DNA of 64,000 nucleotides, taken from assembly GCA_009781315.1 (NCBI GenBank), contig WQYI01000003.1, positions 62,001 to 126,000 on the forward strand, given 5' to 3'. The notes beneath the pieces were generated by a model. It saw nothing but the letters and a program-made list of their open reading frames with translations. It was not told the origin of the DNA and ran no database searches. Shown here in pieces: positions 31,136 through 55,278 of this stretch (its first letter is position 1; each line of letters begins with the position of its first letter). A program made the translations under genes and the position numbers. The stretch comes from Candidatus Endomicrobium embiratermitis. Its GTDB lineage: Bacteria > Elusimicrobiota > Endomicrobiia > Endomicrobiales > Endomicrobiaceae.

Positions 31136-31972
31136 TTATAAAAAATTAATCATATCAACGAGTTTAATAAAATAATCCGTTGACCATATTTCCAATTCTT
31201 TAGGATTTTTAATAAAAGGCATCATATCTTTTTTTACATTTTCAATAGGAGTTTTGTTAATTTTATCTTTTAGCAAATCTTTCAACATGCCTTTAGTCAG
31301 CTTTTCATTTAATTTATCGGAAAATTGTTCGGCTCTTAAACGAAAGTGATTGAAATTTAGAGGAACAGAATTGCGGACATACCACTCAAAATCATACCAA
31401 TCGCGCCCTTTTACTCTATTTTTCCATCCGCGAAATAAAAACGCATGTATTTTTCCGGCAAACAAATCAGGCAAAACATAACAACGCGTCATAAAAGAAA
31501 ACGGCAATAAAAGCAATTTGTATTCGGTATCAAATCCGGCAGGAGGATTTACATCTACTTCTATTTTAATTTTAAGCATTTCTTCGGAACCGAGTTTTAA
31601 ATCGTATATTTTTGTATTGCCTTTCAAAAAAGCCGACTCTATATTAGTTTCTTTCTGTTTGTCTTTTTTAGATATAATTATTTCTCTTCCTAAAGCTTTA
31701 AACTCGCTTTTAACAGCGACAAAATAATTCTCTAACTTAAATTGATCTCCGTATTTTAATAAAGAAAAATCCATATCTTCGGAGAAACGCTCCGATTTAT
31801 AAAAAATACGAAGGCAAGTTCCTCCGTAAAATGCTGCTTTTTCAAAAAAACCGCCTCTGTATAACCCTGCCAACGCGATTTGCTGCATTACTTCGCGAAC
31901 GGCATTTATATAATCATAATTACTTTCTATTTTATAGCGCGACAGCATTTGGTCAAAAACTTTACCGTTCAT
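31136..31972 (-). CDS. AbiEii-type nucleotidyltransferase toxin
   Basis: A 278-residue protein of the AbiEii/AbiGii family. The nucleotidyltransferase signature FYGGTCLRIFY is followed by RFSEDMDFSL with the catalytic acidic residues, and RDWYDFEWYV occurs further on, as in the family. In characterised type IV systems (AbiE, MenT-like) the toxin adds nucleotides to tRNA or otherwise blocks growth. I prefer the ATG at 31972, which lies inside the end of the antitoxin gene, over a TTG two codons upstream. The toxin and antitoxin genes overlap by 11 bases, giving coupled translation. The pair lies in a cassette framed by direct repeats. Confidence 0.88.
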   Translation of the reverse strand: MNGKVFDQMLSRYKIESNYDYINAVREVMQQIALAGLYRGGFFEKAAFYGGTCLRIFYKSERFSEDMDFSLLKYGDQFKLENYFVAVKSEFKALGREIIISKKDKQKETNIESAFLKGNTKIYDLKLGSEEMLKIKIEVDVNPPAGFDTEYKLLLLPFSFMTRCYVLPDLFAGKIHAFLFRGWKNRVKGRDWYDFEWYVRNSVPLNFNHFRLRAEQFSDKLNEKLTKGMLKDLLKDKINKTPIENVKKDMMPFIKNPKELEIWSTDYFIKLVDMINFL

Positions 31973-32600
31973 TTTCAATCGCCTTTATAAACTGTGTCAG
32001 CTCAGTTTTTTTATGTCCGGTTTTAACTATTTCGCGAACAAGATCCGCATCCCAATTATCGACTGCCGACATATCAATTCTCAAATCCTCAATCAGATAG
32101 CGTTTCATAGCTTTTACCGACTGCAAACGAAGATTTCTTGATGAAATTAACATATCGCAAACGGCTTTTTCTGGAGAAGCTATTAAATATGCGGTGTTGT
32201 CTGATTCCTCTATCTGCCTTATACCTATTTGAAAATACTTTTCCGGAACTTTTATATATTCGAATTGGCCATACGCAGTAGAAAAGGATTTTGATCTCTT
32301 CAAAGTCATAGATTTGGCGGAATATACGGCTTCCGGAATTAATCCATAATAAAACAATGCTGTTTCTAAAGATACGTAAGACGGCCCATAAATATGGTTT
32401 GCTAATAACTCTTTTGAAAACGGACGTTTCGTCAACGCCGGAGAGACAATATATAATCCTTTTTTAAGCCGAATCAAATCTCCTTGACGCTCCATATATG
32501 AGATTTTATCTTTAGGAGATTTATAATCTTTAAATACAGAAAGAATCGTATCATAGTTAACAGGAACAGATTCAAACTGTTTTAATATATCTTTTTCCAT
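31962..32600 (-). CDS. AbiEi-type antitoxin / transcriptional regulator
   Basis: A 212-residue protein with an N-terminal winged-helix-like part (ILSVFKDYKSPKDKISYMERQGDLIRLKKGLYIV is longer than needed; the core is GDLIRLKKGLYIV) and a C-terminal AbiEi domain (YVSLETALFYYGLIPE, ASPEKAVCDML). AbiEi proteins repress their own operon and neutralise the toxin. The ATG at 32600 has GGAG six bases upstream; a start at 32621 lacks a ribosome-binding site. A good promoter lies at 32634-32662. Confidence 0.88.
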   Translation of the reverse strand: MEKDILKQFESVPVNYDTILSVFKDYKSPKDKISYMERQGDLIRLKKGLYIVSPALTKRPFSKELLANHIYGPSYVSLETALFYYGLIPEAVYSAKSMTLKRSKSFSTAYGQFEYIKVPEKYFQIGIRQIEESDNTAYLIASPEKAVCDMLISSRNLRLQSVKAMKRYLIEDLRIDMSAVDNWDADLVREIVKTGHKKTELTQFIKAIENER

Positions 32601-32633
32601 GTAAATCTCCAAAATAGTCATTTTTACATAGAT

Positions 32634-32779: not shown

Positions 32780-35700
32780 TTACGCTGCCGCCAAAATTGC
32801 GCGGATTCCTTCCTGCTGTTTGTCGGCTTTAGCATGTTCTACTTCAAGCTTAGTAGTTTTTACGATACCGAGCATAAACAATAAATCGGCTATAGCCTGC
32901 GGTCTGTTTTTAGATTCGACTTTATTGTCTTCCAAATCCGAAATAATGGCGTTGATTGCTTCCTGCGACGCCTCTTCTACCTGCGCGGTTTTCAAATTTT
33001 CCGTAGATATGTCATATTTGCCAAGAACTTCTCTGGCGTCTTTTTTATTATCCAGAGATTGTCTTATCTCATCATCGCTAAGTCCGTTTATTTTTGCCAT
33101 TACCAGCGCCGTTCTGTAAACGTCGGCATTTGTTTTATACGCAAACGTTTTTTCGCCGAATCTGTCAAGCAAAAGCTTCTCGAGAATTCCCTGCACATAA
33201 CCTTGCGCCTCTTCTATTGTTTGCAAGGTATTTGCTTTGGAAGTATTCAAAGCTTCGGCAACTGCTTTTATGGCAGACTTATCGCCTTCGTTTAATTTCT
33301 TTAACTCATAATACAGCCAATCTTCCTGGGCAGTTGTTACGGATACAGTTTCTCTGAAACCGGAACGTCTTGCGTTTCTGTAAATGCCTTCAGGCGTTCT
33401 TTTTACATAAGAAGTCCACGCCGATACAATGCCGAGGAAAAGGCTGTACACGTCTATATTTATTCCTCTTGTCGCCAAAAGTTCCAAAACTTCATAATCT
33501 ATAACCAAAGCTTTTGCCCCGCTTGTAATAGCTTTGCGCGCGGATTCCGCTATCGCGTCCGTATCAACCGTATTGTCGTTATAATTTCCGCTTATGTTTA
33601 TATACTCGCCGTAGTTGTCTATACCCGCTATATTCTCGGTATAATATGCGGATTTAATTGATATTATAGCCCCGGAATTTTCTCTTTTTATAACGGAAGA
33701 TATATTTTTCAAACTGTCTTTAATCTCGTCGAACTCTTGTTTATTTAACGAATCAAAATCAAAATTTACTCCGTCAACGCCTATCCAGTTTGTTCTCAAC
33801 GCTTTTAAACCTTTATTGGCTATCAATTTTATAATCGCCTCGGCTTCCGCTTTATTTGCGGGTTTAAAATTGAGAGTAACTCTTTTGTCCTTCGCGTGCG
33901 CTTTATCAATAAAAGTTTTCAAAGCGGCGGTATTATTTTCAAAATCGGCAACCGTCGTCAATTCTACGGAGAGTACGGTAGCTATAAGCGCGTCTATTAT
34001 ATTAGCGTCCTTTATCTTTGACACGTCTATATTGGTAATCAGCGGGAGCTGATTTCTCATATCGTCGCCTTCTCTGTTTATTCTCTGCGTTTCCGCCGCC
34101 ACTTTAAGTTTATTTTCTTCGGACATTCCGTTTGTAAAGTTGGAATATCCTTTATCTTTAGCCTGCGCGTCTTCAGCAGCATTGCGCGTTATCGCAAAAA
34201 CAGCGGCTTGCGGAGCGGCTACGCTAATATCGTTGAATGAAATATCCGACGCATTTTCAACTATGCCGACCAAGCCGTCTAAATTGTCTACGACATGTTT
34301 ATATGCATCGTAAGAGTTCTGAAGATACTCAGGATAATAATATATATTGACTGCAAATCCGTTTTCTTGCTCTATAGTTCTTTTGTAAAGATGTTGAGAA
34401 CCGGAATGCTCGACGACTCTAAGCGACGCTATCGTCTGTTTAGAAGCTCTGCCCATAGGCATAATCACGTCAACATTTTTGCCGAGCTTAGTTTTTGCAA
34501 CAGCCAATTCAATAGCCTCTTCCTCATCAGCTTCTGTGCCGAACACCATAATGTCGCGAAGTCCCGTCAGCGAGGGATAATTTTTAGAAATATATGTATC
34601 TTTAAAATTTATTCCAAGCATTTTGGCGATAGCAACGATAATGTCAAGAAGCCTTTCAACTTCTTGCCGCACGATTTTGAGCGCGCCTGTATCTTCCACA
34701 TCCTTTTGCGCCTCTTTCTCGTTAACAACAACAATCTCATATGCAACTTTCGGCACATAGTCATAAACAATTTGCATTTCTTGAAAACTCAATTTTCCAA
34801 ACGGTCCGAAAAAGCGCTGTATATCATCCGCATCAAAAAACCTTTTAGGAATATTGCGCGTCCTGTCAATATAAAAGTTTTTTTCAACCAATTCCCCGTC
34901 GCCTGCGCCATGCCCTACGTCTTTTACGGAATTAACGCTTATGTACCATTTTCCACCAGGCTTTGTAATCCTTTTTAACTCATTTAAAATGGTCTCGGTC
35001 TCGGTCTCGGTGAAATAATTCAAAGAAAGGTTTGCGTTAATCACATCAAATTGATTATCTTCAAACTGCGCCCAATCCGCTGGGTTCGCCATATCAAACT
35101 TAATTCCCTTGCTTCCGGGTATATTCGCATGCATTTTATCAAGCATCGCTTGCGAAAGTTCCGCAGAAATAACTTCGTGCCCCGCACGCAACAAGTAATC
35201 CGTATCATTCCCGCGACCGGATCCGAGGTCAAGTATTTTTAAACGCCGCTCACCCTCCGAAGTTGTACCAATATAACGATCTATCCACAGAGCGGCGGCC
35301 ACATGCTCACCAGCCTCATCATCTACAGTCCTCCTAGCAACTGCATCCCAAAACGCTTCGAGTGCTTTGCTAGTGGACAACAACTTCTCAGAGCCCGCCG
35401 GCGCTTGCGCGACCTGTGCTCCCGTGGCGCGAGCTGCGAGTACCGCCACATCCATCACCACTTCGCAGGACACTTCTTTCGTTCCTTTTGGCGCAAGCAA
35501 CGCCAGATAATCTGCCAATGACGCTGTCCATGTTACTGCCATCGCGCGCGGCACGCGCGCTACTTCTTTCCCGCCCGCGTAGAACCCGACCGTGCCTTCA
35601 GCCGGATATGCTTTCGCTTCATCGCTGTCCAGATATTTTTTCCACGCTTCCCGATTTTTTCCCTGCATATTTTTCAGGTTTTTGTCGTACTCTGCTTTCT

Positions 35701-38700
35701 CTTGCGGTTCAATTTTTCCTTTGAGGGCTCTTGCGGCATAAGCATAATCTTCCGCCAGCTTCGCAAGATTTTCTTCCTCCGGGCTCATTATTACCAGCTG
35801 CTGCTGGTCAAAAAAACTTTTGCAGATATTTGAATACTCGTCCATTTTCGAATCTGCTATTTTCACCAACAATCCTTCGTAAAAATCCTTTACAGCCTCA
35901 GCCAATACCTGTCTGCCGATTTCCAAATATTTCGCCATGTCCGCGTCGCTCATATTCGCGCTTTCATCCGGCAGAATTCCCACCATCCAGTTGTAGTCTT
36001 TGTTTTCCGTCCCTGTGCCCGACGGACGGAACGTTGTCTCAAGCTGAAACTTCATCACCTTACCGTCAATCTCGACTTCACGTTCCATAATGATCTGAAC
36101 ACCTTCTTCCGGAAAGGCGTCGTAGTTGTTGTCATACTTCCTGTCGCGGTAAATCTTCAAACCCTTAACTTTGTATTTCCCGTTCAAAAACGTTACTGCC
36201 TGACCCTTGTCAAGCGCGCGCTGTATCCAATACGCAAACCTCTTTTCAAAAACTTGCATTGCCGCCACTTTTTTGGCTATGCCTTCCGCGCCGGAATATT
36301 TCTTGAAGTCGTTCTGCGTCAGCGTTACTGTCTTTATCGTTTTACACATTTCCAAATAATTGCCCCACAGCGACTGCCCGTGAACTTTCAGACGCGCTAA
36401 CAACTCCGCAAATAAAGCCGCAGCAAGCCCGCCGTCTTTATCTTGTATGTGCGTATTTATTAATTCCAGGTTTTCTTCTCCGAAATTAACAAATGCTGTC
36501 TTCAGATTCGAAGATTTTTCCAGCAATTGCCGCACCGCCGCATCGTCGGGCTGTTCCTGTTTCGGCCTGATTTCTCCAAACACGCCGTATCCGTTGGATT
36601 CTTCCACGCCGCAGACAAATTCAACATTAGACACCTGCGCCAGTTGTTTAAGCAATTCCGTCTTATCGTCGTCGGCTTTGTACGCCCGCGCCAGATTCAT
36701 CACTTCATCAATCTCGGGAATTCGATTATCTTCCTGCAATAGCTTGAACGGCTCGTACGCTTCCTCGAGCAACGGCAATATTTGTTCCCACGTTGCCCGC
36801 GGATCGTTTAACTCCAACATACGCCGCGCAGTCCACGCCGTCCGCGCAAATTTCTTCAATTGGTCTGCCCGCTCCGCCAGGAGCGTAAAACCGACATAAG
36901 TATCCACGCATGATACAGGATACTCCAGAGCCCGGTAATGATTGGCCAAATCTTTTAGGGCCGAGGTCGTTACGTGGGATTTAACTATCACGTACAGTTT
37001 ATCTTTTTTCAGTTTGTTCTGTCTCTTCAAGTTCTCAAGCTTGTTGTAGGCCAGCATTGTCCAGGCGTCATTGGCCGTAAGCATCAGTTTATCATTCAAC
37101 CGCTTCTCCACTACCTTCAGCACCCGATCAATCTGTTCCTGCGAAAATCCCCGCGACTCCATGCGGTTTTTCAAAACGCCGCTCATAAGCAGTTGCTTAA
37201 TATTGCCCTGTCCGGCGGGAACATTTATCGTTAATGAAAACCGGTCAATGTCCGGATCCGTCGCAATCATCGCTTCATTTTTATTAGTTAACCGCACCGC
37301 CTTGTCCAAGTTCTTTAAATCCGCTCCGGCATTCTCCAAAATATAATCAACTATGCTTATCGCAACTCCGGTCGGATTGCCGGGATCAGGCATGATAGGT
37401 TCCCAGCCATTGACTATGAACGCAGGAAAACGCCCGTCCACATGCTCGGTCTGCCCTTTGACTATATCCACCGAATCATAGCCCATACGCTTAAGAAAAT
37501 CCACAAAGTTGGCCGCGTCCGTCGCGCCCGCGCCGCTGAACGCCGAGTACAATATCTTTGCCTTTTTGCGCTTTTTTTCGGTTTTGGCAGCTTGTTCCGG
37601 GTTTAATCTACCTAAAATATTAACCACCAACTCCTCTATGTGAGCATAGTATCCTGTATAGAAATCCACTCTTTTATCCGAATCAAGGTTGTTAAAACCG
37701 GCCGGCGCATTTTTGTCGCCTACCCAAGTCCATTTGTTCGGATGCTCGCGAATTTTTTGCTCAATGTCCGTATTCGGATCTGCCAGTTCCAGCGCAATAT
37801 CGTCATATTCAATGAGGTTGCGAAACGCCATAATCATCTCCTTGAAAGACGAATCCACCTGCGACATCTTTTGGCCGACAAAAAACTTAAACCCGTTAGC
37901 GAAAGCTTCGCTGTGGCTGGCTGACACAAGGAATTCAAACAGCGCCCCTGTCAAGGTATATGAATATACCGCCATCGGCACGCCTGCCACAAGTTCAAAC
38001 ATAGACACATTCGCGACATCAGCCACGTCCAGCGCCTGCGCATATGCGAAGAATTTACCGTTCATCCTGCTGTCGAAAGCAAATGTCAAATTGCCGGCGA
38101 GGATATCATCTTTAAACTCCTTGGGAAGTGAGATTGCAATATCCTTAATCCCCTGAGCTTTTCCGGCTGCTGCCGCCCGCTTGTACAGCGAGGTAGGCAT
38201 CAGCAAATCTTTCAGTGTTACTTCTATCGCGTCCGGATGCGCTTTCACATATGCTTGAAGCGCCGCAATTATAGCTTTGATCGCCGCCGTCTGCTGCAAC
38301 ATCACGGGCATGCCGATCATATTATGCCCCGTTAAAATCGGCGCATACGGACTTTGTGCAAAAAGTTCAAGTTCAAGCAGCAGTATACTTCTAAAAGAAC
38401 TATTAACCGCCGGGTTACGGATGCCGGCTGTCCCGAACTCTCTCCAGCCTGCCGCAAAAGCAAATATCAAATCATCATGCCGGCCTTCAAGTATAGCTCC
38501 CACTATGCCTTGCTTAATATACATCGGCATTCTGGGCTCATCAAGCCACTCCAATGCAAACTTTTTAGCTTTGGCCACATCTTCTGCCTTTTCCGACTTT
38601 AGCGCACCGCTCTCAATCTTGCCCGCCATGAATTTTTGCATATTGCTAAGACTGTCGAATTTCGCCTCTTTTTGCAGATATTTCTGCAGATTGTCGGGGT

Positions 38701-41700
38701 TTCCGAATTCCGCTTCTATCAGCTCCGAACCCTTCCATGGTCCTTTATGATCCGCCAACAACTGCGCCGCCACTTCTTTTGCGTACAGAGATTTAGCCAC
38801 CATCAGCCAGTCGAAAACTTCACGCTGACTGGCATCCGCCGCTTTTATTATATTGACTTTTTCGGACAATGCGATTAACGCTCTCTGCCGCTCAATCAAA
38901 CTCATCGTTGTATTGTTTATAAGATCCGCCAGATTTTTCTTGGCATCTTTCAATTCCTGCTGTGTAATCTGCTCGTCAAGAATACTTGCCAGCACATCCG
39001 AGCCGGTCTGTTTATTCTTCACTATCTCAAACATCCGCTCGGAAGGCGTCTTCCGGCTGACGTCTGTTGCGCGCGGCGCGTCCGCATCCGCAGGCGTACC
39101 AACCGTCAGCAAACCGCTTTTGCCGAGTTTGTTCTTGTAATTTTCGAGTATTTCCCCAATAGTGTTACTGACTTGATATTGATAGCCTTCAATATTCTTA
39201 TCTAATATATCCGGATTATTCACAATATACTGCGCAATTCTTTCATCTGAAGCCACACCTTTCAGGGATATTAATTTTGTCAGCCAAAGATAAAAATCGC
39301 TGCCTTTTTCTTTCTCTATTACTGTTATTATTTTTTCTATTGTTTCTTTTTTCAGATCATTTACAATTTTGGTATTTATAAAATAATGAGCCAAAAAATT
39401 TGAGGTGATAACAGAACTTATCGCCGCTACAAACAGTATGGGCACCGTAAGAGTAAAACTAAACACTAACAGGCCAATAGCAATGCCTAAGAGCGTAGTC
39501 ACAGAAGCGCCTACCACAGTCAAATTCTGCAAATATCTCGCCGATTCTTTTGTCGCATCCGCTTTAGCCGTACTATCGCTTTCCTTGATATGCGCCAGCG
39601 CAAACCTGCCCGGATTAAAGAGCATCCAAGGCAAATAAAGCAGTTCCACAACCGCCCCGGCAATCCTGCCTGTCCTGCTTTCTATGCCGCCAAACCTATC
39701 CACAATTTTACGCGTAGAATCAAGCGTCAGTATCCCTTCTGAAGAAACTGCTTTCTTCGCAGCTTCTTTGACCATAGAGATATTTTCCGGCGAATCCGTC
39801 AGGCGCAGGAAGAATCCCTGCCCGCCCTGCTCGCTGCGGAGTATGGTCAGCGCGTCATACGACGCTTCCGCAAAGTAATCGCGCACAAGGTTCGGACTGA
39901 CATTGTCCAGATATCCCTTGGCAAAACCTATCGCCCTTCTGGCAGGCTGCTCTTTTTCAGGAACAAAGGAAATGATAAACGGCAGATATTTCTGCGGCTG
40001 CGCCAGCACTTGCTGATAACTGATATGCTGATCCCCGGTGCCCTGCAACACCCATTCAATCCCAAGTTCGGTAAGATAATTCCGCAGTTCAGAAAACTTC
40101 TCGCCTTCCAGATATATAAAAGGCACGAATTTACGATTATTATCAGCCGCGTAATCCATGGCACTTTTGATCGCATCTGCCAGCGTCTGCATGTCCCTGA
40201 TATTTTCCGGAACATACAGCCCGGAAACCGACGTTTTCAATTTTCCGGCTCGCGCCTGTACCTTGACGCTCTCCATGGCGTTGACTATCGCTCCGGGTTT
40301 CCTGCTTTCTTCCTTTTGTAAGTCCTTTAGACGTTTTTCCAGCAAACCTTTGCCCAACTCCACGTACGGCTGGCGCAAATATAAGTTTTCCTGCACGATT
40401 TTCGTCGCAGGATTATCCAGATCGTTCAAATCCACGTCTGCGGGCGTATAACCTTCTTCTAATAATGCCCGCGCTATCAGCCTGTTGCCCACTGTTGACG
40501 TAATTCCATAGAATAATGTTGTAAGATTGGCATACATCTCGACCATTTTTTTAGGAGTTAGTTTCTTAATATTGCCTGTCATGCCTTGCATATTTTGCAC
40601 GTTGAAATTCTTGCTGCTTATATTTTGGCCGGACAAATTGATAACCATTCTGCCGGCATCTTTCTCTTTCAAGTAATTATCCTGCTGGACCTGCCAGTGG
40701 CTTTGCTTTATTACCACCACGTTTGCAAATCTCTCCTGCCATATACTTTCATTGAAATTTTGTTCGATGGATTTTCCGAACCAGAACAGCTCGTCCGGCA
40801 CTACCAGCGCAATGTCCGTGATGTTGTTGTCGATAATCTGGCCTGCCAGCTCCACGCTGCGATGCGTCCCTTCATTGACTTCACGAATCCCCTTATTACG
40901 GGCATTCCAGTACGCTTCTGCATCCAGATTATATAACGCCAAAAAGTCCTCCATGTGCAGGTCTGCGGTCCAGCGGCCGCCGACATTGTCGTACATTTCC
41001 ACGATGATATTTTCCGGCGCGATGCCCAGATCATCCAGTAGTCCCGAATTTATCAGGAATGCAGCCAGCCTGCTCTGCTCCACGCGGTTGGTCGTCTCAA
41101 AGAAAGTGTTGCCAAGGACAACTTTAAATATCTGCTTCACTTGATCGCGCGTAATGTTAAGACCTGCGGCGTTGGCTCTTTCAACGAGCAGGGTGATCAG
41201 GCTATTCGTATTCGTACCCAAACGCTTCTGGGTCTCCTTGTCAATTTTGAACAAGTCCGCTCCCGTCCGTTCAGTTTCATTCCCTTTATCATCTTTGATG
41301 AAATTAATATCGTGCAGCGTATTGAATACCAAGTCAGCAAAACTCTCTCCGTCTATATTATTTATATTCTGTGTGGCAGGAATGTACTTGAGCTGCAGGT
41401 ACAGCAGCTCGCTGTAGATCATCATAGTTTCGTCAGTAGAACCTGATTTTGAGCTTGGCATCACTGCTACCTGATCCCAGCCAATTCCCATTTTCTTGAG
41501 CAGGTCGTTCAATTCCGTCTCATAATCTTTCCCAAGTTCATATTCGCCCAACATCTCGGAACCGCCGTACACCACTACCTTGAATCCGTCGGCGAGACCC
41601 TTGAACGGCGTATTCTGCCCGCCGATACCCGGCTTGATAAACACCTTGATTGGCTTAGGACGATCATGGAAGAATTTCCGCTTGCGGGCGACATCGTCCA

Positions 41701-44700
41701 AGAACTTCTGTTTTCCTTCTTCCGTGTAATATCCTTGATTACCGGATTCGTCAACTGCAAATGACCCGTTGAGGACCGCTTTTGCTGCGACTCCCCAGCC
41801 AGGCTGATTATATCCGCCGTTCAGGAAATCCTTAGAGCTTTTAGAATTCGGATCCAGAACGACTTCTCTCAGCATTTTGCCCACCGCCCGTCCTGCTTTA
41901 GCCTCATTCAGGGGCATTTTAGCTACGATTTCGGCTTTTTGTCTATCGACTTGCTTAATGACTTCGTCGTCAGTTAAATTCTTCAGTTCGTTTACAAAAC
42001 CCACAACGGCTTCTAAATTAGCCAATGTCATAGCCATACTATCGTACATATTTTCCCATATAATAAAGCTTCGCTCAAAGCGTTTGGGATTAGTAATGCC
42101 TAGTTCTAGCGTTTTTCCTTTTTCCTCTTCATCCTCTATATATTTTTTTATCGCGTTCGTTAACCATTCGCCACGGATCCCGCTATTTTCCGGCACCTGA
42201 AATACCGTATACCGCGTACCATCCAGATCGCTCTGTTTAAATAAAAACTCTTCTACGCCAAGCCCAAGCGCTTTACCAAGATTTTCCGGCAAAGCTCTTA
42301 AAAGCTCTTTTATCTTACTGGCTTGTTTACTATCTGTTTCCAACAAGAGCATTTGGTCTAAGGTTTCTTTTATTTGGATTGCTAACGGCTGTTGGGAGAG
42401 GGGAAGGTCTTGTTTTTTAACAATATTAGATTTTTCGATATACTCGTCAATTTTTCCCGGATTATTGATTATTTCAAGAACGAGGTCGAAATTGCCTGCA
42501 CTTTTATCGCCTACAAAGTATTGTAAAATACTTGCGTATTCTTTAGATTTTACGTCTTCTTTCGCATGATCTAAAATTATTCCGAGAGCGTTTGCGGCTT
42601 GCGCCAGCTGCTTGTAGTTATATTTTGAATGGCCGCTGATATTTATGTAGAACATCGAAATAATTCCGATGGCAATGACGGTACTGACGAGTGTGCAAAC
42701 CAGTGCGCCTATAAACAACATGGACACGGGAAGAGCCAATACCCCGAACACTATTGATATTGGAAAAGCCGCTATAGCAGCAAATATGGCTCCGCCAAGC
42801 GCCCCTGTCACAAAAGCTGTTTCAGAGTCTTTCCCCAATTTCTCCGTACCTGTAAGTATTTCTGTTTTAGTTTTGTCAGAATAAAGTTTATGCCTATCTG
42901 CAAATTTAATAGGTTTGCGTATCATCTCAAATATATATCTGGCTTCATAAACAGCCACGGCCAAGCTTCTTACTTTAAGTTCATTGCCTTTAGTAAACGG
43001 CCTTATGAAACCATTAACCCACCAGCTGTTTCTAATCTTCTTCCAAACGCCTGAAGTTTCGAGAAGGCCGGACTTACTGCCTGCCGGTTCTATAAGCTCT
43101 CCTTTGCTGGTAATGACTTTCACTCCGGGAGTTTGTCCGTCTTTTTCAAAATATTGAGCAAACGCATCGCCGCCTGTTGATCCGTGCGTAAGATTTCCTT
43201 TTATTCCAAATTTTTCGAGGAGTCTCTTTATGGCTTTTTTTACACCAATCATAGTTTCTCCGCCGCCGGCAGCGCTAATAATTCCTTCCTTTCCTTTTTC
43301 CGGATCTTCCGTTGCCTCAATTACGGCCATCATAAATTGAATAGTGCCTTCATCAAAACCATTTTCGTTATCTTCAACAACCCCAAGCGGACCGTTCCCT
43401 AAGAACATTCCTCTTTGTTGTGCTACTCTCTCTACTTGTTTCTTATACTCATCAATGGTTTTCGGACCTACATCCATAGGCTCTCTTCCGGCAGGCACTT
43501 CATATGTTTCTGTTACCAATATATCTTTTTTCGAATATCCTTCATTAAATTGGTGCGCATCAAAATTATATGAGCCTACAGGTATCGTAACAAAATCTTT
43601 CGGAAGCACTATTTCTATCTTTTTTCCCTGAGCACGCAATTCTTTTTCTTTGTCAAGTATCTTTCCCGCGAATGTAATATCGCCTTCTTCAATTTTTGCG
43701 CCTCCCATCTTATCTTTTCCGAATTTATACGCAATAAAAGCAAAAGCCATCGGACCGCCGATTATTATTGTGAGATCTTCAACTTTACCTTTTTCGACTT
43801 GCGACAGAGACATATTGACAGTATTCATTTTCTTTGTCACTTTAGAACCGCCGAGCACCTTCAGCAGCGGACTTCTTGGATTTTTATTCACTCCTTCTAA
43901 TACTTTTAGCTCTTTAGCCATCAAATGTCCGCCGACTACTATCACCCCGTTATTTTTTAAATATTCCGGCAATTTCTCAATTGAAGCGTGACTCCTGTGG
44001 GTTGTGCCGAAAGCATCCGTCACGTATATAATGTTTTCCAAATTTCCACCGAAATTGTTGTTGAGAAATTTCTTTACAAACTCTTCGCTATTGGTCTTTT
44101 CTCCGATATCCGGTTTTTTGCGCAGGTTGCCAAGAAGAGCTATGTCTCCGTTATTCATGGCTTTTATCGTGCTGCTATTATTATCGCCTATAACATCCTC
44201 GCAATATTTCACTTCTTTTCCGGTAAGGCTGGCAATTTCGTCTGCCACCGGAGACAAATCATATTTATATAAATTTTCCTCAGGCACAAAAACAAGATTT
44301 TCATCTTCGTCCGCTTCAGGATCTGCTAAATGCGTTATTACTATGACTTTCGCGCCTCTTTCGGTCAGATAACGTATCGTAGGAGCGGTTTGTTTTATTT
44401 TATTATTATCGATTATTTTTACTTTTCCGTCTTTCTTTTCTAACTTAACATTAAGATCCGCTCTTAAGATAACCGTTTTCCCTTCAAAGAATTTTTCTCC
44501 GTATTTTTCCGCCAAATCATCGACTGTCGCTTTTCCGGTCATATCTTCTTCAATTACGGCTTTCTCAGGCAAAACCAGAGAGAGGGCGGCTGCTAAAATT
44601 TGTTTTACTTTCGTTGGCCTGGGGAATTTTTTTTCGGCTTCGTTTAGAATGCCGTCAAGGCGTTCCAATACGGCTGTGGAAGTCATGTCTACAAAAAACT

Positions 44701-47700
44701 CCGTTCTTTCGAAGTCGTCGGATATGTCTTCTCCTCTGTTTTCCCCTATTTCGTCCCCTCTAAGTATATCGCCGATTTTTTCAATTATATATCCATATTT
44801 TTCAGACTGTTGGTTATATTGCTCGGTATGATGAAATACGATCAATTTTGTTTGCGCTGAAGGAGTATCCTCCGGCGATATCGTGATGCCAAGCTCGGCA
44901 AAGCGGTTTGTAATGGTTTTGTAAAGATGGGCTTTATACTGTTCATCGGTCATTTTTGAACTTATGCTTGGGGTTGTTACCATTTCAATAGCAATAGGGC
45001 TTACTGCTTCTTCGGCGGCTTTAAAGAATGCCTCTGTAGTTTCCTTGGAAGGTTTGTCAGTAAATTCAAACGTATTTCTAATTCTGTTAAGCGTCCCGTT
45101 AAACGCTTCTTTATTGTTATCTATAAGAGATTCAATCTTTCGAGCATACTTTGCGTCCCACTTTAATGTATATATTTCTTTTTTATTAAATTGTGTTACT
45201 CCATATTTAAGTCCGCCAAGGCTTATTTCATTTTTTTCTTTATAATGTGCCACAGCTTGGACAAGCTTTAAATGCGCAATATTTTCAGGTTTGCTCAAAT
45301 AATCGGAAATCTTCTTTAGTTCCGCATTATCTTTTATATAATAAATGTGTCTTGGACCAGAATAGGAATCAACTACTTTTGCTTTAACCAGCAGTTCTTC
45401 AAGTACTGTTGTACAAGATAAACCCTCTGCTTTCAATTGTACGAGTTCAGTCTTGTCCAGAATTGATATTTTCTCTGCCGGTATATTATATTCGTTTAAT
45501 TTTCCTTGGATGCTTCTGTTAATACGGTTGTTTTCTATTTCTTGCTGCGTTAATCTTCCTTTTGATAACGACCGATAGCTCGTAAATCCCCCTCTTGCTT
45601 CTTGCTCCGAAGAAGCCACGGCAATCGGTTCTTCAACGCCATAAAAGGTCTTCAGCTTAGAGACAGTTTCGTTTAATTCCGGAGAACTAACTGCTATGTC
45701 TTCAAGCGCAACCTTTATATCGTTTAAAAATATTTGATTTATATCGCCGTATGAACTCAAAACTTTTATAGCATTAATAAGGGCTTCGGCCTTTCCTTCA
45801 ATATGCTGCACAAAACGAATGATATCCATTTTGTTCGCAGGATTAAAAACACTAACTGCATTATATTCGTCCAGCGCTTTGTAAAAATTTAACACTGCCG
45901 TGTTTTTTTGTTTGAAATTATAACTTCTCATATTTTTAAGACTAAAGGTATTTGCGATATGAGCAATAACTTCAAACTTTTTAGTCGCTTCAATACCCAT
46001 TAATCCTCTGACATGCATTAATTCGTGATTTAATATAATATTGTCTACTAAATCTTCATTTAATTTCATCAATGCCAAAGCATTGACTGCTATTACATAT
46101 TTTCCGCCTTCCCCTTTAACGGTTCTGGCAATAACATCCAAGCCCGGAACATTTACAATCCTCAATCCTTTTTTGGACTCTTTCCGAAACCGGCTATTCT
46201 TTTGATTATATTTTTCTTCAAGTCCTGCAACATAATCGTCTCCCGTCTTTTTTTGGGCAGCCGTAAGTTCTTTCGGGGTTGTTGATATAAGAGCTTCTTG
46301 AACCTGCCCGGCATTATATACTGAAGCTGCGGAAAAACTAGCAATTCCTAAACCTACAATAAAACTTGCAACAATACCAAAAACGGCAATTGCCGGAGCA
46401 AGAGGAAAAGATAAAACTATTCCCAAAGCCGAAAGCGCCGCGACGGCAAAAACTCCGATGCCTCCGAGCATTCCCGCTTCTTTTACGTCATATGCTTGGC
46501 CGGGGGCACTATCAACTATTCCTGATTCGGTTATTGTATATTCGCCGGATATTCCGTCCGCTTTCGCAGTTACCGTATAACTGCCGTCTTTATTTTCAAT
46601 GATTTCTATGTCAAATCCGCTTAAGCCTTTATTTCTGACTTGATCTTTTAACGAATTTTCTCCGTTTATAACTTCCGCTACGGATTTCCCTTCTGCTTTG
46701 GCAACGGCTTTAGCCGCATCAAGAACGTCTTTTTGGAAATAAACCCCGACCGCCGCTTTTAAGCTTTTATCAGACAAATCAAACGCGCCTGAAGGCAAAG
46801 CTTTTTGGAAAGTATTTGTAGGAATATATTTTGAAATTCTTATGACGTCTTCAACGAATAATTTATCTGCAAGCGCCGCGTCTTGGGTTACGTTAGGCGT
46901 TATTACCACATAGCTTTGATTGGCATTTTGCAAAATTCTTGACACGTCCTGCGTGTGGAAACCTCCGGTTACCACAACTTCCACTTCTTTGGCGTTGGCA
47001 AGAAGTTCGGCAACGCCGGTCATAATCATATCTTTGGAAAAAGTCATGTTTGCTTCGCGGGTTTTAGGAAGTTTTCCGGACATTTCCTTTACGAAAATAT
47101 TGTTTCTTTCAACGTTTACTTTGTAAAAACTTTCAAACAAAGAATAATACTGCTCAAGCCCTGGAAGTTCCGACATTCTGGTATACTTTGTCCATAAAGC
47201 TTTAAATTTAGGCAATTCTTTTTCAAAATATTTATATTCCGGAGCGGTAATTTTATTTTCAAGAAAACCTTCCATTAAATCTATAAAGTTACCCAAAAAG
47301 AGCAGTTCTCTTTCTTTATTCGTTTTTGCCGCGTTGTTTCTTACTTCCCAAAGCAAAGCTCTTTCTTCGTTTACAAGGTCAAGCGGATTTATTGTCTGGT
47401 TAAAACCTATAAACTGCAAAAATTTGGCAAGCTCGGGATATTTTGCGCCGTAATTCCCTTTATTGTAAAATTCCGCGAGTTTAAAATAAAACACGCCTTC
47501 GGTTTCGGGCTTTGAAGAATACGCTATCAGCTCTTTATACTCGCCGTAAGTTATATTGGATTTAATCTCTTCCAAGAAACTTTCTATCTGCGAATTGACT
47601 TTATCTTTATTTAGTTTATTCTGGACGCTTATAATATCCGACAATAATACTATAGACGGATAAAAGCCGAAGTAAACGTTTTGTCTTTTAGCTTTTTTAA

Positions 47701-48412
47701 CCAAGAAAGAAAAATATTTGTCAAAAGAAAGTTTACCGTTTTTATATCTGTTTACAACGGCTTCGATTCTCTTGTTTTCTTTCCCGTAATGCTGCTCTGC
47801 CAGATACGAAAGAATCGTTCTTATTTCGGGAAACAGCGATCTTACTTCGTCTCTTTGGGAATCTATTTTAACAAGCCTGTTAAAGTTTTCGATATAAGCT
47901 TTTTTATCTTCGATACCTTCTAATATTTTTGTTTTTCCGGAATTAACCGAAAACAATTCCGAACCCGTTAATATACCCTTGGAAAGCAGGGAATTTATTA
48001 TCGAATTTTTTAAATTTTCATCTGAAATGTTTGCCAGCCACGACGTGTCAACGCCGCCGACCGCGCCTTCCACATATACTTTGTTTATTTTATATTTCGA
48101 ATCTAAAAGGGAAAGAATGTTTGCTATATTTCTCTGGGTTTCTTCATGGGCGTGCAAGTCCTGAATTTGCACAATAACTTTATCGCTTTTGAAATTTACG
48201 GAATCAGTAACCCTTCCTATATTAAAAGGAACTACAAAGTTTGAAGGGTTTAAAGCCGGAGAAGTATTGACCGTTTGAAGGCCGGGCGCCGCGTTTTGCG
48301 CAAAAGCTCTTGAGGTAAAACCGCTTGTCGCAAAAATCGAAAAAGTAAAACAGGCCGCCGTAACTACCGAAATAATTTTTTTGTAATTTAACTTCCTTAT
48401 AATCTTAAACAT
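32780..48412 (-). CDS. Giant 5210-residue exported multidomain protein with glycolytic enzyme-like domains
   Basis: One open frame of 5210 codons without interruption. In order: signal peptide (1-38, cut after SRAFA); a ChaN/TraB-like region (about 40-520, IQDLHAHEE and VTGGFHTQD); two membrane helices (about 645-698); a metallopeptidase-like segment with NHELMH (about 794-799); helical linkers; a phosphoglycerate kinase-like domain (about 1290-1790); a hydrophobic block (about 1861-1921); a phosphoglucose isomerase-like domain (about 2100-2880); two helices (about 2963-3009); a phosphoglucomutase-like domain (about 3290-4180); a class I methyltransferase domain (about 4375-4560); and a C-terminal TIM-barrel-like region (about 4700-5210). 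GGGGGAAAT precedes the ATG. Giant proteins of this kind are known in Elusimicrobia and Omnitrophota relatives, but the function is unknown. It may be cleaved, displayed or act as an envelope enzyme array; none of these is shown. Confidence 0.9.
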   Translation of the reverse strand: MFKIIRKLNYKKIISVVTAACFTFSIFATSGFTSRAFAQNAAPGLQTVNTSPALNPSNFVVPFNIGRVTDSVNFKSDKVIVQIQDLHAHEETQRNIANILSLLDSKYKINKVYVEGAVGGVDTSWLANISDENLKNSIINSLLSKGILTGSELFSVNSGKTKILEGIEDKKAYIENFNRLVKIDSQRDEVRSLFPEIRTILSYLAEQHYGKENKRIEAVVNRYKNGKLSFDKYFSFLVKKAKRQNVYFGFYPSIVLLSDIISVQNKLNKDKVNSQIESFLEEIKSNITYGEYKELIAYSSKPETEGVFYFKLAEFYNKGNYGAKYPELAKFLQFIGFNQTINPLDLVNEERALLWEVRNNAAKTNKERELLFLGNFIDLMEGFLENKITAPEYKYFEKELPKFKALWTKYTRMSELPGLEQYYSLFESFYKVNVERNNIFVKEMSGKLPKTREANMTFSKDMIMTGVAELLANAKEVEVVVTGGFHTQDVSRILQNANQSYVVITPNVTQDAALADKLFVEDVIRISKYIPTNTFQKALPSGAFDLSDKSLKAAVGVYFQKDVLDAAKAVAKAEGKSVAEVINGENSLKDQVRNKGLSGFDIEIIENKDGSYTVTAKADGISGEYTITESGIVDSAPGQAYDVKEAGMLGGIGVFAVAALSALGIVLSFPLAPAIAVFGIVASFIVGLGIASFSAASVYNAGQVQEALISTTPKELTAAQKKTGDDYVAGLEEKYNQKNSRFRKESKKGLRIVNVPGLDVIARTVKGEGGKYVIAVNALALMKLNEDLVDNIILNHELMHVRGLMGIEATKKFEVIAHIANTFSLKNMRSYNFKQKNTAVLNFYKALDEYNAVSVFNPANKMDIIRFVQHIEGKAEALINAIKVLSSYGDINQIFLNDIKVALEDIAVSSPELNETVSKLKTFYGVEEPIAVASSEQEARGGFTSYRSLSKGRLTQQEIENNRINRSIQGKLNEYNIPAEKISILDKTELVQLKAEGLSCTTVLEELLVKAKVVDSYSGPRHIYYIKDNAELKKISDYLSKPENIAHLKLVQAVAHYKEKNEISLGGLKYGVTQFNKKEIYTLKWDAKYARKIESLIDNNKEAFNGTLNRIRNTFEFTDKPSKETTEAFFKAAEEAVSPIAIEMVTTPSISSKMTDEQYKAHLYKTITNRFAELGITISPEDTPSAQTKLIVFHHTEQYNQQSEKYGYIIEKIGDILRGDEIGENRGEDISDDFERTEFFVDMTSTAVLERLDGILNEAEKKFPRPTKVKQILAAALSLVLPEKAVIEEDMTGKATVDDLAEKYGEKFFEGKTVILRADLNVKLEKKDGKVKIIDNNKIKQTAPTIRYLTERGAKVIVITHLADPEADEDENLVFVPEENLYKYDLSPVADEIASLTGKEVKYCEDVIGDNNSSTIKAMNNGDIALLGNLRKKPDIGEKTNSEEFVKKFLNNNFGGNLENIIYVTDAFGTTHRSHASIEKLPEYLKNNGVIVVGGHLMAKELKVLEGVNKNPRSPLLKVLGGSKVTKKMNTVNMSLSQVEKGKVEDLTIIIGGPMAFAFIAYKFGKDKMGGAKIEEGDITFAGKILDKEKELRAQGKKIEIVLPKDFVTIPVGSYNFDAHQFNEGYSKKDILVTETYEVPAGREPMDVGPKTIDEYKKQVERVAQQRGMFLGNGPLGVVEDNENGFDEGTIQFMMAVIEATEDPEKGKEGIISAAGGGETMIGVKKAIKRLLEKFGIKGNLTHGSTGGDAFAQYFEKDGQTPGVKVITSKGELIEPAGSKSGLLETSGVWKKIRNSWWVNGFIRPFTKGNELKVRSLAVAVYEARYIFEMIRKPIKFADRHKLYSDKTKTEILTGTEKLGKDSETAFVTGALGGAIFAAIAAFPISIVFGVLALPVSMLFIGALVCTLVSTVIAIGIISMFYINISGHSKYNYKQLAQAANALGIILDHAKEDVKSKEYASILQYFVGDKSAGNFDLVLEIINNPGKIDEYIEKSNIVKKQDLPLSQQPLAIQIKETLDQMLLLETDSKQASKIKELLRALPENLGKALGLGVEEFLFKQSDLDGTRYTVFQVPENSGIRGEWLTNAIKKYIEDEEEKGKTLELGITNPKRFERSFIIWENMYDSMAMTLANLEAVVGFVNELKNLTDDEVIKQVDRQKAEIVAKMPLNEAKAGRAVGKMLREVVLDPNSKSSKDFLNGGYNQPGWGVAAKAVLNGSFAVDESGNQGYYTEEGKQKFLDDVARKRKFFHDRPKPIKVFIKPGIGGQNTPFKGLADGFKVVVYGGSEMLGEYELGKDYETELNDLLKKMGIGWDQVAVMPSSKSGSTDETMMIYSELLYLQLKYIPATQNINNIDGESFADLVFNTLHDINFIKDDKGNETERTGADLFKIDKETQKRLGTNTNSLITLLVERANAAGLNITRDQVKQIFKVVLGNTFFETTNRVEQSRLAAFLINSGLLDDLGIAPENIIVEMYDNVGGRWTADLHMEDFLALYNLDAEAYWNARNKGIREVNEGTHRSVELAGQIIDNNITDIALVVPDELFWFGKSIEQNFNESIWQERFANVVVIKQSHWQVQQDNYLKEKDAGRMVINLSGQNISSKNFNVQNMQGMTGNIKKLTPKKMVEMYANLTTLFYGITSTVGNRLIARALLEEGYTPADVDLNDLDNPATKIVQENLYLRQPYVELGKGLLEKRLKDLQKEESRKPGAIVNAMESVKVQARAGKLKTSVSGLYVPENIRDMQTLADAIKSAMDYAADNNRKFVPFIYLEGEKFSELRNYLTELGIEWVLQGTGDQHISYQQVLAQPQKYLPFIISFVPEKEQPARRAIGFAKGYLDNVSPNLVRDYFAEASYDALTILRSEQGGQGFFLRLTDSPENISMVKEAAKKAVSSEGILTLDSTRKIVDRFGGIESRTGRIAGAVVELLYLPWMLFNPGRFALAHIKESDSTAKADATKESARYLQNLTVVGASVTTLLGIAIGLLVFSFTLTVPILFVAAISSVITSNFLAHYFINTKIVNDLKKETIEKIITVIEKEKGSDFYLWLTKLISLKGVASDERIAQYIVNNPDILDKNIEGYQYQVSNTIGEILENYKNKLGKSGLLTVGTPADADAPRATDVSRKTPSERMFEIVKNKQTGSDVLASILDEQITQQELKDAKKNLADLINNTTMSLIERQRALIALSEKVNIIKAADASQREVFDWLMVAKSLYAKEVAAQLLADHKGPWKGSELIEAEFGNPDNLQKYLQKEAKFDSLSNMQKFMAGKIESGALKSEKAEDVAKAKKFALEWLDEPRMPMYIKQGIVGAILEGRHDDLIFAFAAGWREFGTAGIRNPAVNSSFRSILLLELELFAQSPYAPILTGHNMIGMPVMLQQTAAIKAIIAALQAYVKAHPDAIEVTLKDLLMPTSLYKRAAAAGKAQGIKDIAISLPKEFKDDILAGNLTFAFDSRMNGKFFAYAQALDVADVANVSMFELVAGVPMAVYSYTLTGALFEFLVSASHSEAFANGFKFFVGQKMSQVDSSFKEMIMAFRNLIEYDDIALELADPNTDIEQKIREHPNKWTWVGDKNAPAGFNNLDSDKRVDFYTGYYAHIEELVVNILGRLNPEQAAKTEKKRKKAKILYSAFSGAGATDAANFVDFLKRMGYDSVDIVKGQTEHVDGRFPAFIVNGWEPIMPDPGNPTGVAISIVDYILENAGADLKNLDKAVRLTNKNEAMIATDPDIDRFSLTINVPAGQGNIKQLLMSGVLKNRMESRGFSQEQIDRVLKVVEKRLNDKLMLTANDAWTMLAYNKLENLKRQNKLKKDKLYVIVKSHVTTSALKDLANHYRALEYPVSCVDTYVGFTLLAERADQLKKFARTAWTARRMLELNDPRATWEQILPLLEEAYEPFKLLQEDNRIPEIDEVMNLARAYKADDDKTELLKQLAQVSNVEFVCGVEESNGYGVFGEIRPKQEQPDDAAVRQLLEKSSNLKTAFVNFGEENLELINTHIQDKDGGLAAALFAELLARLKVHGQSLWGNYLEMCKTIKTVTLTQNDFKKYSGAEGIAKKVAAMQVFEKRFAYWIQRALDKGQAVTFLNGKYKVKGLKIYRDRKYDNNYDAFPEEGVQIIMEREVEIDGKVMKFQLETTFRPSGTGTENKDYNWMVGILPDESANMSDADMAKYLEIGRQVLAEAVKDFYEGLLVKIADSKMDEYSNICKSFFDQQQLVIMSPEEENLAKLAEDYAYAARALKGKIEPQEKAEYDKNLKNMQGKNREAWKKYLDSDEAKAYPAEGTVGFYAGGKEVARVPRAMAVTWTASLADYLALLAPKGTKEVSCEVVMDVAVLAARATGAQVAQAPAGSEKLLSTSKALEAFWDAVARRTVDDEAGEHVAAALWIDRYIGTTSEGERRLKILDLGSGRGNDTDYLLRAGHEVISAELSQAMLDKMHANIPGSKGIKFDMANPADWAQFEDNQFDVINANLSLNYFTETETETILNELKRITKPGGKWYISVNSVKDVGHGAGDGELVEKNFYIDRTRNIPKRFFDADDIQRFFGPFGKLSFQEMQIVYDYVPKVAYEIVVVNEKEAQKDVEDTGALKIVRQEVERLLDIIVAIAKMLGINFKDTYISKNYPSLTGLRDIMVFGTEADEEEAIELAVAKTKLGKNVDVIMPMGRASKQTIASLRVVEHSGSQHLYKRTIEQENGFAVNIYYYPEYLQNSYDAYKHVVDNLDGLVGIVENASDISFNDISVAAPQAAVFAITRNAAEDAQAKDKGYSNFTNGMSEENKLKVAAETQRINREGDDMRNQLPLITNIDVSKIKDANIIDALIATVLSVELTTVADFENNTAALKTFIDKAHAKDKRVTLNFKPANKAEAEAIIKLIANKGLKALRTNWIGVDGVNFDFDSLNKQEFDEIKDSLKNISSVIKRENSGAIISIKSAYYTENIAGIDNYGEYINISGNYNDNTVDTDAIAESARKAITSGAKALVIDYEVLELLATRGINIDVYSLFLGIVSAWTSYVKRTPEGIYRNARRSGFRETVSVTTAQEDWLYYELKKLNEGDKSAIKAVAEALNTSKANTLQTIEEAQGYVQGILEKLLLDRFGEKTFAYKTNADVYRTALVMAKINGLSDDEIRQSLDNKKDAREVLGKYDISTENLKTAQVEEASQEAINAIISDLEDNKVESKNRPQAIADLLFMLGIVKTTKLEVEHAKADKQQEGIRAILAAA
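34733..35290 (-). other. Giant protein, SAM-dependent methyltransferase domain
   Basis: Residues about 4375-4560 carry class I motifs: KILDLGSGRGNDTDYLLRAG (motif I), VISAELSQAMLDKMH (acidic loop, Glu as ribose ligand), FDVINANLSLNYF (motif IV) and ITKPGGKWYISVN (motif post-IV). The acceptor is unknown. Confidence 0.8.
35873..38545 (-). other. Giant protein, phosphoglucomutase/phosphomannomutase-like domain
   Basis: Residues about 3290-4180. Four active-site loops are visible: FGTAGIRNP at the start, SASHSEAFANGFKF (phospho-serine loop, from TASHNP..NG.K), ATDPDIDRFS (metal loop DxDxDR) and GVEESNGYGV (sugar-binding GGEES), and finally TFRPSGTGTENKDY (phosphate loop RPSGTE). All key residues appear present, so mutase activity is plausible. 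It is longer than the family because of helical inserts. Confidence 0.8.
39773..42115 (-). other. Giant protein, phosphoglucose isomerase-like domain
   Basis: Residues about 2100-2880. The recognisable PGI landmarks are IKPGIGGQNTPFKGL (first SIS loop), MPSSKSGSTDETMM (phosphate-binding SKS.ST), GGRWTADLHM (the GGR) and GTGDQHISYQQVL, corresponding to [12 protein letters not shown] with its catalytic-region His. It is strongly diverged from the normal pgi at 50783-52435, so it is not a recent copy of it. Confidence 0.75.
43043..44545 (-). other. Giant protein, phosphoglycerate kinase-like domain
   Basis: Residues about 1290-1790 cover a whole PGK fold: ILRADLNV, GAKVIVITHLADP, IALLGNLRKKP, VTDAFGTTHRSHAS, KVLGGSKVTKKM, DVGPKTIDEY, LGNGPLGVVED, AGGGETMIGV and GSTGGDAFAQYF. 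Several 3-phosphoglycerate contacts are kept (Asp and Asn of ADLN, His of THL, Arg of NLR, Arg of THRSH). Others are changed: the Arg equivalent to human Arg38 is Lys (DNNKIKQ) and the Arg of SHLGRP is missing (THLADP). It is either weakened or tuned to another substrate. Confidence 0.8.
45780..46110 (-). other. Giant protein, HExxH metallopeptidase-like segment
   Basis: Residues about 768-878. NHELMHVRGLMGIEATKKFE carries an HExxH zinc motif followed by acidic residues that could give the third ligand, as in M48-type peptidases. The segment follows two membrane helices, which is also M48-like. If active it could process this polypeptide or other envelope proteins. Confidence 0.5.
46850..48300 (-). 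other. Giant protein, N-terminal ChaN/TraB-like region
   Basis: Residues about 40-520. The segment VIVQIQDLHAHEETQRNIA with VYVEGAVGGVDTSWLA, and later VEVVVTGGFHTQDVSRIL, resemble the His and Glu/Gly patterns of the ChaN/TraB/EreA-like fold (some members bind haem or act as hydrolases). It follows the signal peptide directly, so it should be outside the cytoplasm. The assignment is by motif resemblance only. Confidence 0.45.
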
Positions 48413-49198: not shown

Positions 49199-50443
49199 TT
49201 AACACATATTACGAACAATAAAGCAGTTTTTATCTATTACTTTTGATAACCTTGCAACAAGATCTTGATCTTCTTTTATATTGATTTTTTCTATTTCTTC
49301 CGCTAATAATTTTGGAAGCAAATCAGCAAATTCCATAAACTCGGTTTTTAAAAGACTGAAAGAATAATCTATTTTTTCGCATAATGATTTCCAATTATCC
49401 AAACGAATCCGTTGTTTTTCATAGGAAGAGTCTATTTTCATGGCCATTTTTTTACTTAGACTAGGATATACCTCCGTTGAAACCAAATCATAAGCCGGAG
49501 ATATATCAATATTATTATCGTTATACAATAAAGAAAAATTCTTTGCGTGCGCGTCATTATTACCGATTAAAAAATTAAACATTATAATTTTCATTATTAT
49601 ATTTCTGTTTTTTGCCGGAGTTGACGTTTGGTTTAGCAGCTCAAAACAGTCTTTGAGAGACGGACCGCCTTCTGCCTGATATTTATTAATACTTAAAATT
49701 CCTAAAGCCTGACAAAAATCCTCCTGATGAATTCTTTTTACCATGCCGTTTTTTATTTCTCTGTCATATCTCTCGATTAATAAATAGCTGATATCTTTTG
49801 CCTGCCCTATTGAAACTTCAGGAGTCGCGACGCCAACGGATTTTGCCAGTTTCATACACAAATATTCATTCAGCACAATGTCCGCAAAATTTTCACTCAT
49901 AGGTTTTACTATATGAGTAGTAGGCGTGCCGTTTTTCGGAAGACATATTTTACCGTCAATAATACTTATGCAGGATTTATTCTGTGCGCCGGCTAAGGAA
50001 AGCCTTATGTCGTTTGTTTCATCCGCAAAAAAAGGTTTTTCCGGTAGTTCTCTCAGATGTTCGGCAAAAGACTCTTCGGTTTGCTCATACCCTTCAAGTT
50101 TTATAAAGATTGATTTTTCTAAAGGCTCGTCTATTGAAGTTAGAGAAATTGCCCCGGCGCAATCGCGGCCTATCGCTTTTAACATCGAAAAATCGCTATT
50201 GTGGCTTATGCCAAATATTTGACCTATTCGTTTTTTTGTTCTTTCGCTTTCGGGAAGCAATCCGTTAAAATACGGTCTGCATTCTTTTTCGTTAAATATT
50301 TTCTTTTCAATAGGAAGGCTTTTTGATATTTGAAATTTTGCATTATCCGAATAAGAAAATTTTAATCTCCCGTTTTCATCCTGCTCTAAAAAACCTGCTT
50401 CTTCCCCATACAGACGGACAGAAAGTATTTTATCTTTATTCAT
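49199..50443 (-). CDS. hipA: HipA-type serine/threonine kinase toxin
   Basis: A 414-residue HipA protein. It shows the N-terminal HipA domain (VRLYGEEAGFLEQDENGRL, RPYFNGLLPES), the ATP loop region THIVKPMSE, the catalytic loop GNNDAHAKNFSLLY and the metal-binding DISPAYDLVST. HipA kinases phosphorylate glutamyl-tRNA synthetase or similar targets and slow growth until bound by HipB. The gene is 8 bases after hipB and is read in the same operon. The kinase residues look intact. Confidence 0.94.
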   Translation of the reverse strand: MNKDKILSVRLYGEEAGFLEQDENGRLKFSYSDNAKFQISKSLPIEKKIFNEKECRPYFNGLLPESERTKKRIGQIFGISHNSDFSMLKAIGRDCAGAISLTSIDEPLEKSIFIKLEGYEQTEESFAEHLRELPEKPFFADETNDIRLSLAGAQNKSCISIIDGKICLPKNGTPTTHIVKPMSENFADIVLNEYLCMKLAKSVGVATPEVSIGQAKDISYLLIERYDREIKNGMVKRIHQEDFCQALGILSINKYQAEGGPSLKDCFELLNQTSTPAKNRNIIMKIIMFNFLIGNNDAHAKNFSLLYNDNNIDISPAYDLVSTEVYPSLSKKMAMKIDSSYEKQRIRLDNWKSLCEKIDYSFSLLKTEFMEFADLLPKLLAEEIEKINIKEDQDLVARLSKVIDKNCFIVRNMC

Positions 50444-55255: not shown

Positions 55256-55278
55256 TTTATTCTATAAACCTCTGACCT

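Follow-up and report, generated by a model that had tools for sequence, protein, structure and literature searches.

Bacterial glycolysis is regarded as a cytoplasmic pathway. A locus of an Endomicrobium (Elusimicrobiota) from the termite gut raises the question of why glycolytic enzyme domains would be strung together behind a signal peptide in one giant protein. The stretch of DNA analysed (the window, 64,000 nucleotides) covers bases 62001-126000 of contig 3 in a 1.90-Mb genome that is 99.97% complete. On its minus strand, which carries all features of the protein given below, positions 32780-48412 form a frame of 5210 codons with zero internal stops in the window translation. A first-pass annotation had described this as a single open frame encoding a signal peptide, ChaN/TraB-like, HExxH, PGK, PGI, phosphoglucomutase (PGM) and methyltransferase domains and hydrophobic blocks, possibly as an exported enzyme array, a self-cut polyprotein or a surface structure of re-used enzyme folds, and had allowed for an assembly artefact. 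Random frames never reach such a length and both ends of the protein have same-locus relatives in other species (28-82% identity), which argues against a chance frame. Because these shared ends recur in independent genomes of sister species at the same pgi-linked locus, the frame is not an assembly artefact either, and the reading as one stop-free protein of 5210 amino acids holds.

A terminator-like stem (48652-48621) sits between the giant gene and its upstream neighbour, and an ordinary stand-alone PGI gene (50783-52435, minus strand) is a neighbour of a giant gene in at least eight genomes. A HipA-like frame (49199-50443) flanks the giant gene on the side opposite to an adjoining gene pair (31136-32621, minus strand) that by eye looks like an AbiEii nucleotidyltransferase and AbiEi. 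Elsewhere in the window, a minus-strand gene run (53219-63826) resembles, again by eye, a membrane-bound hydrogenase or complex-I-like module with a maturation protease, and positions 22295-29122 (minus strand) encode a 2275-aa TPR-repeat protein with acidic Pro/Glu/Lys-rich linkers, duplicated repeat blocks and no obvious signal peptide.

The N-terminus of the giant protein resembles a signal peptide, MFKIIRKLNYKKIISVVTAACFTFSIFATSGFTSRAFA|Q (amino acids 1-39, AFA|Q cleavage site; 48296-48412). Relatives sharing the adjoining head domain begin likewise, with a hydrophobic segment (h-region) in 54 of 54 testable sequences and an AxA-like site in 47 of the 54, both called by rule rather than by SignalP. 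The head itself (amino acids 60-530; 46823-48235) contains 26 residues that are invariant among 55 sequences, including QDLHxH, E115, E152 and GGxH486 (here GGFH486), and a TPN motif is also conserved. Erythromycin esterase EreC and the ChaN-TraB superfamily share this H..H, E, E, GxxH pattern and likewise have a mixed fold in which the helical part is large, and the head may tentatively be described as an EreA/ChaN-like hydrolase. The residue pattern is the basis for this, as searches of Pfam, the PDB and folds gave no significant match to EreA, ChaN or TraB. Pfam returned no ChaN/TraB match, and with an AlphaFold model of the head (pTM 0.80) EreC structures ranked only 3 and 17 (E 0.5-1.7). 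In this respect the head differs from the superfamily, and the first-pass ChaN/TraB-like assignment is not established statistically. Weak matches to an EndoS TIM-barrel, DUF1722 and ThiI differed between members of the family and were taken as chance.

Three hydrophobic blocks each lie between domains, at amino acids 645-699 (46316-46480), 1865-1927 (42632-42820) and 2963-3008 (39389-39526); the first is modelled as two long helices, and the others are recognised by hydrophobicity. The first block is followed by an HExxH...E metalloprotease-like domain (amino acids 700-920; 45653-46315) with the motif HELMH at amino acids 796-800 (46013-46027). HExxH recurs at a fixed spacing, within 400 residues after the head, in 30 of 73 giants compared to 0.28 expected from shuffles, and the intervening stretch usually includes a hydrophobic hairpin of 40-60 residues. 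An alignment of 31 such domains conserves N, H186, E187, H190 and a distal E204, the last in at least 90%; these sequences were chosen for having HExxH, from which the invariance of H186, E187 and H190 follows. HExxH plus a distal Glu is the gluzincin-type arrangement. Fold searches with the head and HExxH models gave nothing significant, the latter model having a pTM of only 0.48 and no structural match. It is plausible, judging by this motif, that the giant is a polyprotein cut by its own HExxH domain.

The phosphoglycerate kinase (PGK) domain (amino acids 1309-1756; 43145-44488) matches Pfam with E=4.5e-74 (250 bits, profile positions 6-377 of 379) and PDB entry 1vpe with E=6e-50, and has the PGK fold over its full length. 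Its R122, R170, lysines and GGG/NGP loops are kept, while R38 is replaced by K and R65 by D; in the human enzyme, the salt bridges made by R65 are essential (PMC7729029). In a tree of giant PGKs the window branch, with a length of 5.3, is too long for placement. Further downstream, a class I methyltransferase domain (amino acids 4394-4490; 34943-35233) fits the Methyltransf_11/25 profiles (Methyltransf_11, E=3e-16), and the conserved C-terminal region (amino acids 4567-5210; 32783-34714) is common to same-locus proteins with differing middles. The phosphoglucomutase-like domain (amino acids ~3290-4200; 35813-38545) gives only sub-threshold matches to Pfam domains I, II and III, in the correct order (E 5e-4 to 3e-3), but all four active-site motifs of a phosphohexomutase (PGM/PMM) are intact: SASH 3498 for the phosphoserine, DPDIDR 3719 for the metal (DxDxDR), EESNG 3937 for the sugar (EES) and RPSGT 4129 for the phosphate (RxSGT).

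The domain between the second and third hairpins (amino acids 2169-2893; 39734-41908) has diverged further, and its identification as a PGI is provisional. It carries the motifs SKSGSTDET, GGRW, QPYVELGK and GTGDQH, and most of the PGI set SKxxTTxET, GGRxS, ESxGK, GxxxQH and QxxVELGK is present in its homologues. Profile-profile comparison with PGIs of its own lineage gave three short, collinear, motif-sized matches exactly at the PGI motifs, each of them weak (single E 0.0077-0.039, probability 1-5%). On the other side, no match was found in Pfam (PF00342), NCBIfam or the PDB (phmmer; three-sequence profile), and the lysine motif precedes the histidine motif, the reverse of the PGI order. A stand-alone 715-aa frame of the same diverged domain occurs in another genome (G223, L006:1174-3318). 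GC at third codon positions is 36-37% in the head and PGK but reaches 55-57% over the PGI-like and PGM domains, as expected if a cassette of the latter two arrived later; G064, which is from a distant family, also has a giant with such a pair. Taken together, the signal peptide, the interdomain hydrophobic blocks, the HExxH motif, PGK and the methyltransferase were correctly read in the first-pass annotation, and PGM and PGI were recognisable by their motifs rather than by significant database matches. Broadly right on domains, that annotation nevertheless assumed one protein, where the genome contains about 14 and the phylum a whole family.

When the first 560 residues served as the query, 69 of the 341 genomes searched in the phylum proved to encode the head, and the frames that carry it span ~600 to 11,800 amino acids. 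The best 80 matches of a scan of GTDB species were from Elusimicrobiota only. The window gene thus belongs to a large family of mosaic proteins with a common head in this phylum. Its own genome yields 26 head matches in about 14 giant frames; their combined length of about 48,000 residues accounts for 7.6% of the genome, and several of them reach contig ends. On contigs 9 and 20 (G000; L131, L132/L133) two giants begin at the contig ends with nearly identical heads, and copy numbers are therefore lower bounds, because repeated heads break the assembly. A genome of the same genus (G002; one complete-looking 1.6-Mb contig) has no head copy, so the giant system must be dispensable.

What the head carries is exchanged between species. 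Sister-species proteins beside pgi are 48-73% identical over their N-terminal 636-973 residues and 28-55% at the C-end, with a different middle: PGM and a methyltransferase in E. neocapritermitis, classic PGI and PGM in E. macrotermitis and other sequence in E. labiotermitis. Even the PGI slot is filled by different PGI types in the window protein and a relative. The PGM, PGI and PGK cargo recurs in relatives, in orders other than that of the window protein, for which a search had been suggested; they show NUDIX-PGM-PGI-PGK, ADK-PGM-PGM-PGK-PGI, PGK-ADK-MT-PGI, UDPGP-PGI-PGM and ENO-TIM, as well as aldose epimerase and GH94. Classic PGI domains in giants of other species score 380-632 bits. 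In a scan of 46 bodies (97,000 aa), picked by head alone to avoid selecting enzyme-bearing ones, such enzymes prevailed among the recognised domains: PGM was found five times, PGI twice and PGK, ADK, GH94, a starch-synthase type, UDPGP and NUDIX once each, next to other families including SecA_DEAD (three), GA, TPR and metallophosphatase; most family cargo sequence has no Pfam match. The giant PGIs group outside the stand-alone clade in the tree (that of G060 separately), which suggests that they arose long ago and have been inherited since.

Some members have other contents. A 6090-aa giant predicted to be exported (L122:1409-19678) has the same head, about six AAA_5 (dynein/midasin-like) domains and a weak match to VWA, which makes it a midasin-like chain with a signal peptide. 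In another giant (L088:2-11929) GH94 domains of the cellobiose phosphorylase type are split; these would supply glucose-1-phosphate to the PGM step. PGM domains are tandem-duplicated with identical active-site motifs in L194 (G022; amino acids 1848-3200).

Within the source genome, a second giant of 5387 aa (L123) carries TIM, GAPDH, enolase, a GpmA-like phosphoglycerate mutase and two FBA copies, and shares no step with the window protein. Two further giants contain PPDK/PEP-synthase domains in which the swivelling histidine is kept. Together with the window protein, with its PGI-like domain provisional, these giants include every step from glucose-1-phosphate to pyruvate except PFK, which was not found within giants and is encoded by a stand-alone gene only. 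Ordinary stand-alone genes for PGK, PGI, PFK, FBA, GAPDH, TIM, enolase and phosphohexomutases are present too. Compared with solved structures, L123 retains N11, K13, H95 and E165 of TIM (loop 6 is altered), C149 and H176 of GAPDH, all metal ligands plus K345, H373 and K396 of enolase and the catalytic residues of FBA copy 2, residues whose catalytic roles we take from general knowledge. In giants of other species, enolase was found only in G062 (L195:3060-12428), where it is circularly permuted (the C-terminal barrel comes first, then the N-terminal domain) and has altered active-site loops. Every examined motif covered by the locus is kept in the giant PGKs of four relatives (G019, G022, G027, G030) and in the giant PGIs of six. 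The giant PGIs, the G027 copy apart, retain 92-96% of 64 columns common to distant PGIs and only 59-64% of 193 columns invariant only in close relatives, which suggests that they drift where chemistry allows; the decayed G027 copy retains 75% and 34%, respectively. Decay is also seen in the PGIs of G030 and G060, the window PGK (R38K/R65D), the phosphoglycerate mutase (second His to Ser) and FBA copy 1.

These patterns bear on whether the folds have merely been re-used in exported surface proteins such as adhesins, coats or predation devices, with the enzymes as building blocks or moonlighting binding modules whose catalysis is irrelevant. Giants of similar size in Elusimicrobiota and Omnitrophota are read as surface weapons or adhesins in earlier reports (PMC10066038, PMC12057145), and several domains here are decayed or rearranged, such as the permuted enolase and the window PGK. 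Deep PGI columns, however, are selectively kept, the catalytic cysteine of GAPDH survives in a cysteine-poor chain, and the cargo forms one connected pathway rather than random folds. Glycolytic enzymes are well-known surface moonlighters, and re-use, which the first-pass annotation had raised, would suit single domains (the window PGK, the mutase, one FBA copy); catalytic conservation weakens it for the family as a whole, and we consider it unlikely, if still a serious contender.

The location of the chain is suggested by its composition. Cysteine amounts to 0.17% in the window giant and 0.19% in four neighbours with signal peptides versus 0.99% in fourteen cytosolic neighbours. Enzyme domains of giants contain 17 cysteines in 9840 residues against 131 in 22,881 in stand-alone homologues, a three-fold depletion (Fisher p=1e-7, which overstates independence as the rows are related sequences). 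The giants are probably exported out of the cytoplasm, and hairpins of this length would keep the domains together on a single side of the membrane. The exported enzyme array proposed in the first-pass annotation is the best-supported reading, given cysteine level, signal peptide, interdomain hairpins, catalytic residues and recurrence.

Each giant consists of a head (signal peptide and a ~520-aa domain), often a hairpin and the HExxH...E domain, and then cargo exchanged at the locus. Sec would export the chain, hairpins would tether it to the outside of the inner membrane, where every soluble domain would also lie, and the HExxH domain might cut it into pieces. Most enzyme domains would be active at this site and would duplicate glycolysis and glucose-1-phosphate metabolism outside the cytoplasm. 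Sugar phosphates and trioses, perhaps from lysed cells or host material, could be interconverted into importable forms, with PGM and PGI funnelling material to glucose-6-phosphate. We put the chances about even that the giants are exported, membrane-tethered mosaic enzyme strings working on sugar phosphates outside the cytoplasm. That they amount to a nearly complete second glycolysis from glucose-1-phosphate to pyruvate, on a few tethered, perhaps self-cutting, cassette-exchanging polyproteins, is a more tentative proposal. Its main difficulty is the supply of ATP and NAD, which are normally absent outside the cell and one or other of which is needed by GAPDH, PGK, ADK and PPDK. Within Endomicrobiaceae, the endosymbiotic genus is described as having shifted to sugar phosphates, and most other genera are said to lack OPA-type transporters (PMC11257099), so the import step is not supported in the source species.

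Alternatively, the giants could be delivered into the cells (or cell lysate) of a eukaryotic host or of prey, where ATP and NAD would be at hand and the enzymes could rewire sugar-phosphate pools. Some members of the lineage are symbionts that live inside gut flagellates and feed on sugar phosphates (PMC11257099), and Chlamydia CT295 is a housekeeping PGM with an acquired secretion signal (PMC9251005). Yet the giants have a Sec-type signal and none for injection was seen, and the enzyme-bearing giants were found mainly in genera described as free-living in guts or water, which makes delivery improbable. Still less credence is due to a membrane-anchored chain with cytoplasm-facing enzymes, that is, a membrane-bound glycolytic metabolon. 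ATP and NAD are present in the cytoplasm and an odd number of spans in one block would flip the topology, but the cysteine level equals that of exported proteins, the blocks mostly measure 40-60 aa like two-helix hairpins, and the signal peptide has a cleavage site. Finally, an assembly or annotation artefact or a decaying pseudogene fusion, to which decay in some domains and contigs broken by head repeats might point, can practically be dismissed given 5210 stop-free codons, matching ends in independent assemblies and giant PGIs that form old groups with kept active sites.

If the exported strings are indeed active, members of a whole phylum would run a second glycolysis on giant chains beyond the cytoplasm, and models of gut-symbiont metabolism would have to change. 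Giant bacterial genes, whose roles are openly said to be unknown, would then also gain a function. The family contains many natural variants, some with intact and some with decayed domains, that can be compared. Giant genes are known in Elusimicrobia and Omnitrophota, with functions called unclear, adhesive or predatory (PMC10066038, PMC11573180, PMC12057145). The giants of Omnitrophota, including Ca. Velamenicoccus archaeovorus, and the Elusimicrobia 'giant genes' are likewise very long, contain several transmembrane segments, are presumed to be at the surface and are numerous per lineage. They differ in being described as poorly annotated, adhesin-like or polysaccharide-degrading, and the passages on them mention no common head or glycolytic cargo (PMC10066038, PMC12057145). 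A search of open-access papers found no description of either feature. Glycolytic enzymes are also joined in one chain in the bifunctional PGK-TIM fusion (NCBIfam PRK13962) and similar fusions; unlike the giants, PGK-TIM has two domains and is cytoplasmic, and with 242 bits the window PGK falls below the model cut-off of 883. The nearest tested precedent is the secreted phosphoglucomutase CT295 of Chlamydia trachomatis, a housekeeping sugar-phosphate enzyme with an export signal that is used outside the bacterial cytoplasm and serves glucose-6-phosphate import (PMC9251005). CT295 is a single enzyme sent into the host vacuole by a type III secretion signal, whereas the giants are strings of enzymes with a Sec-type signal and a common head.
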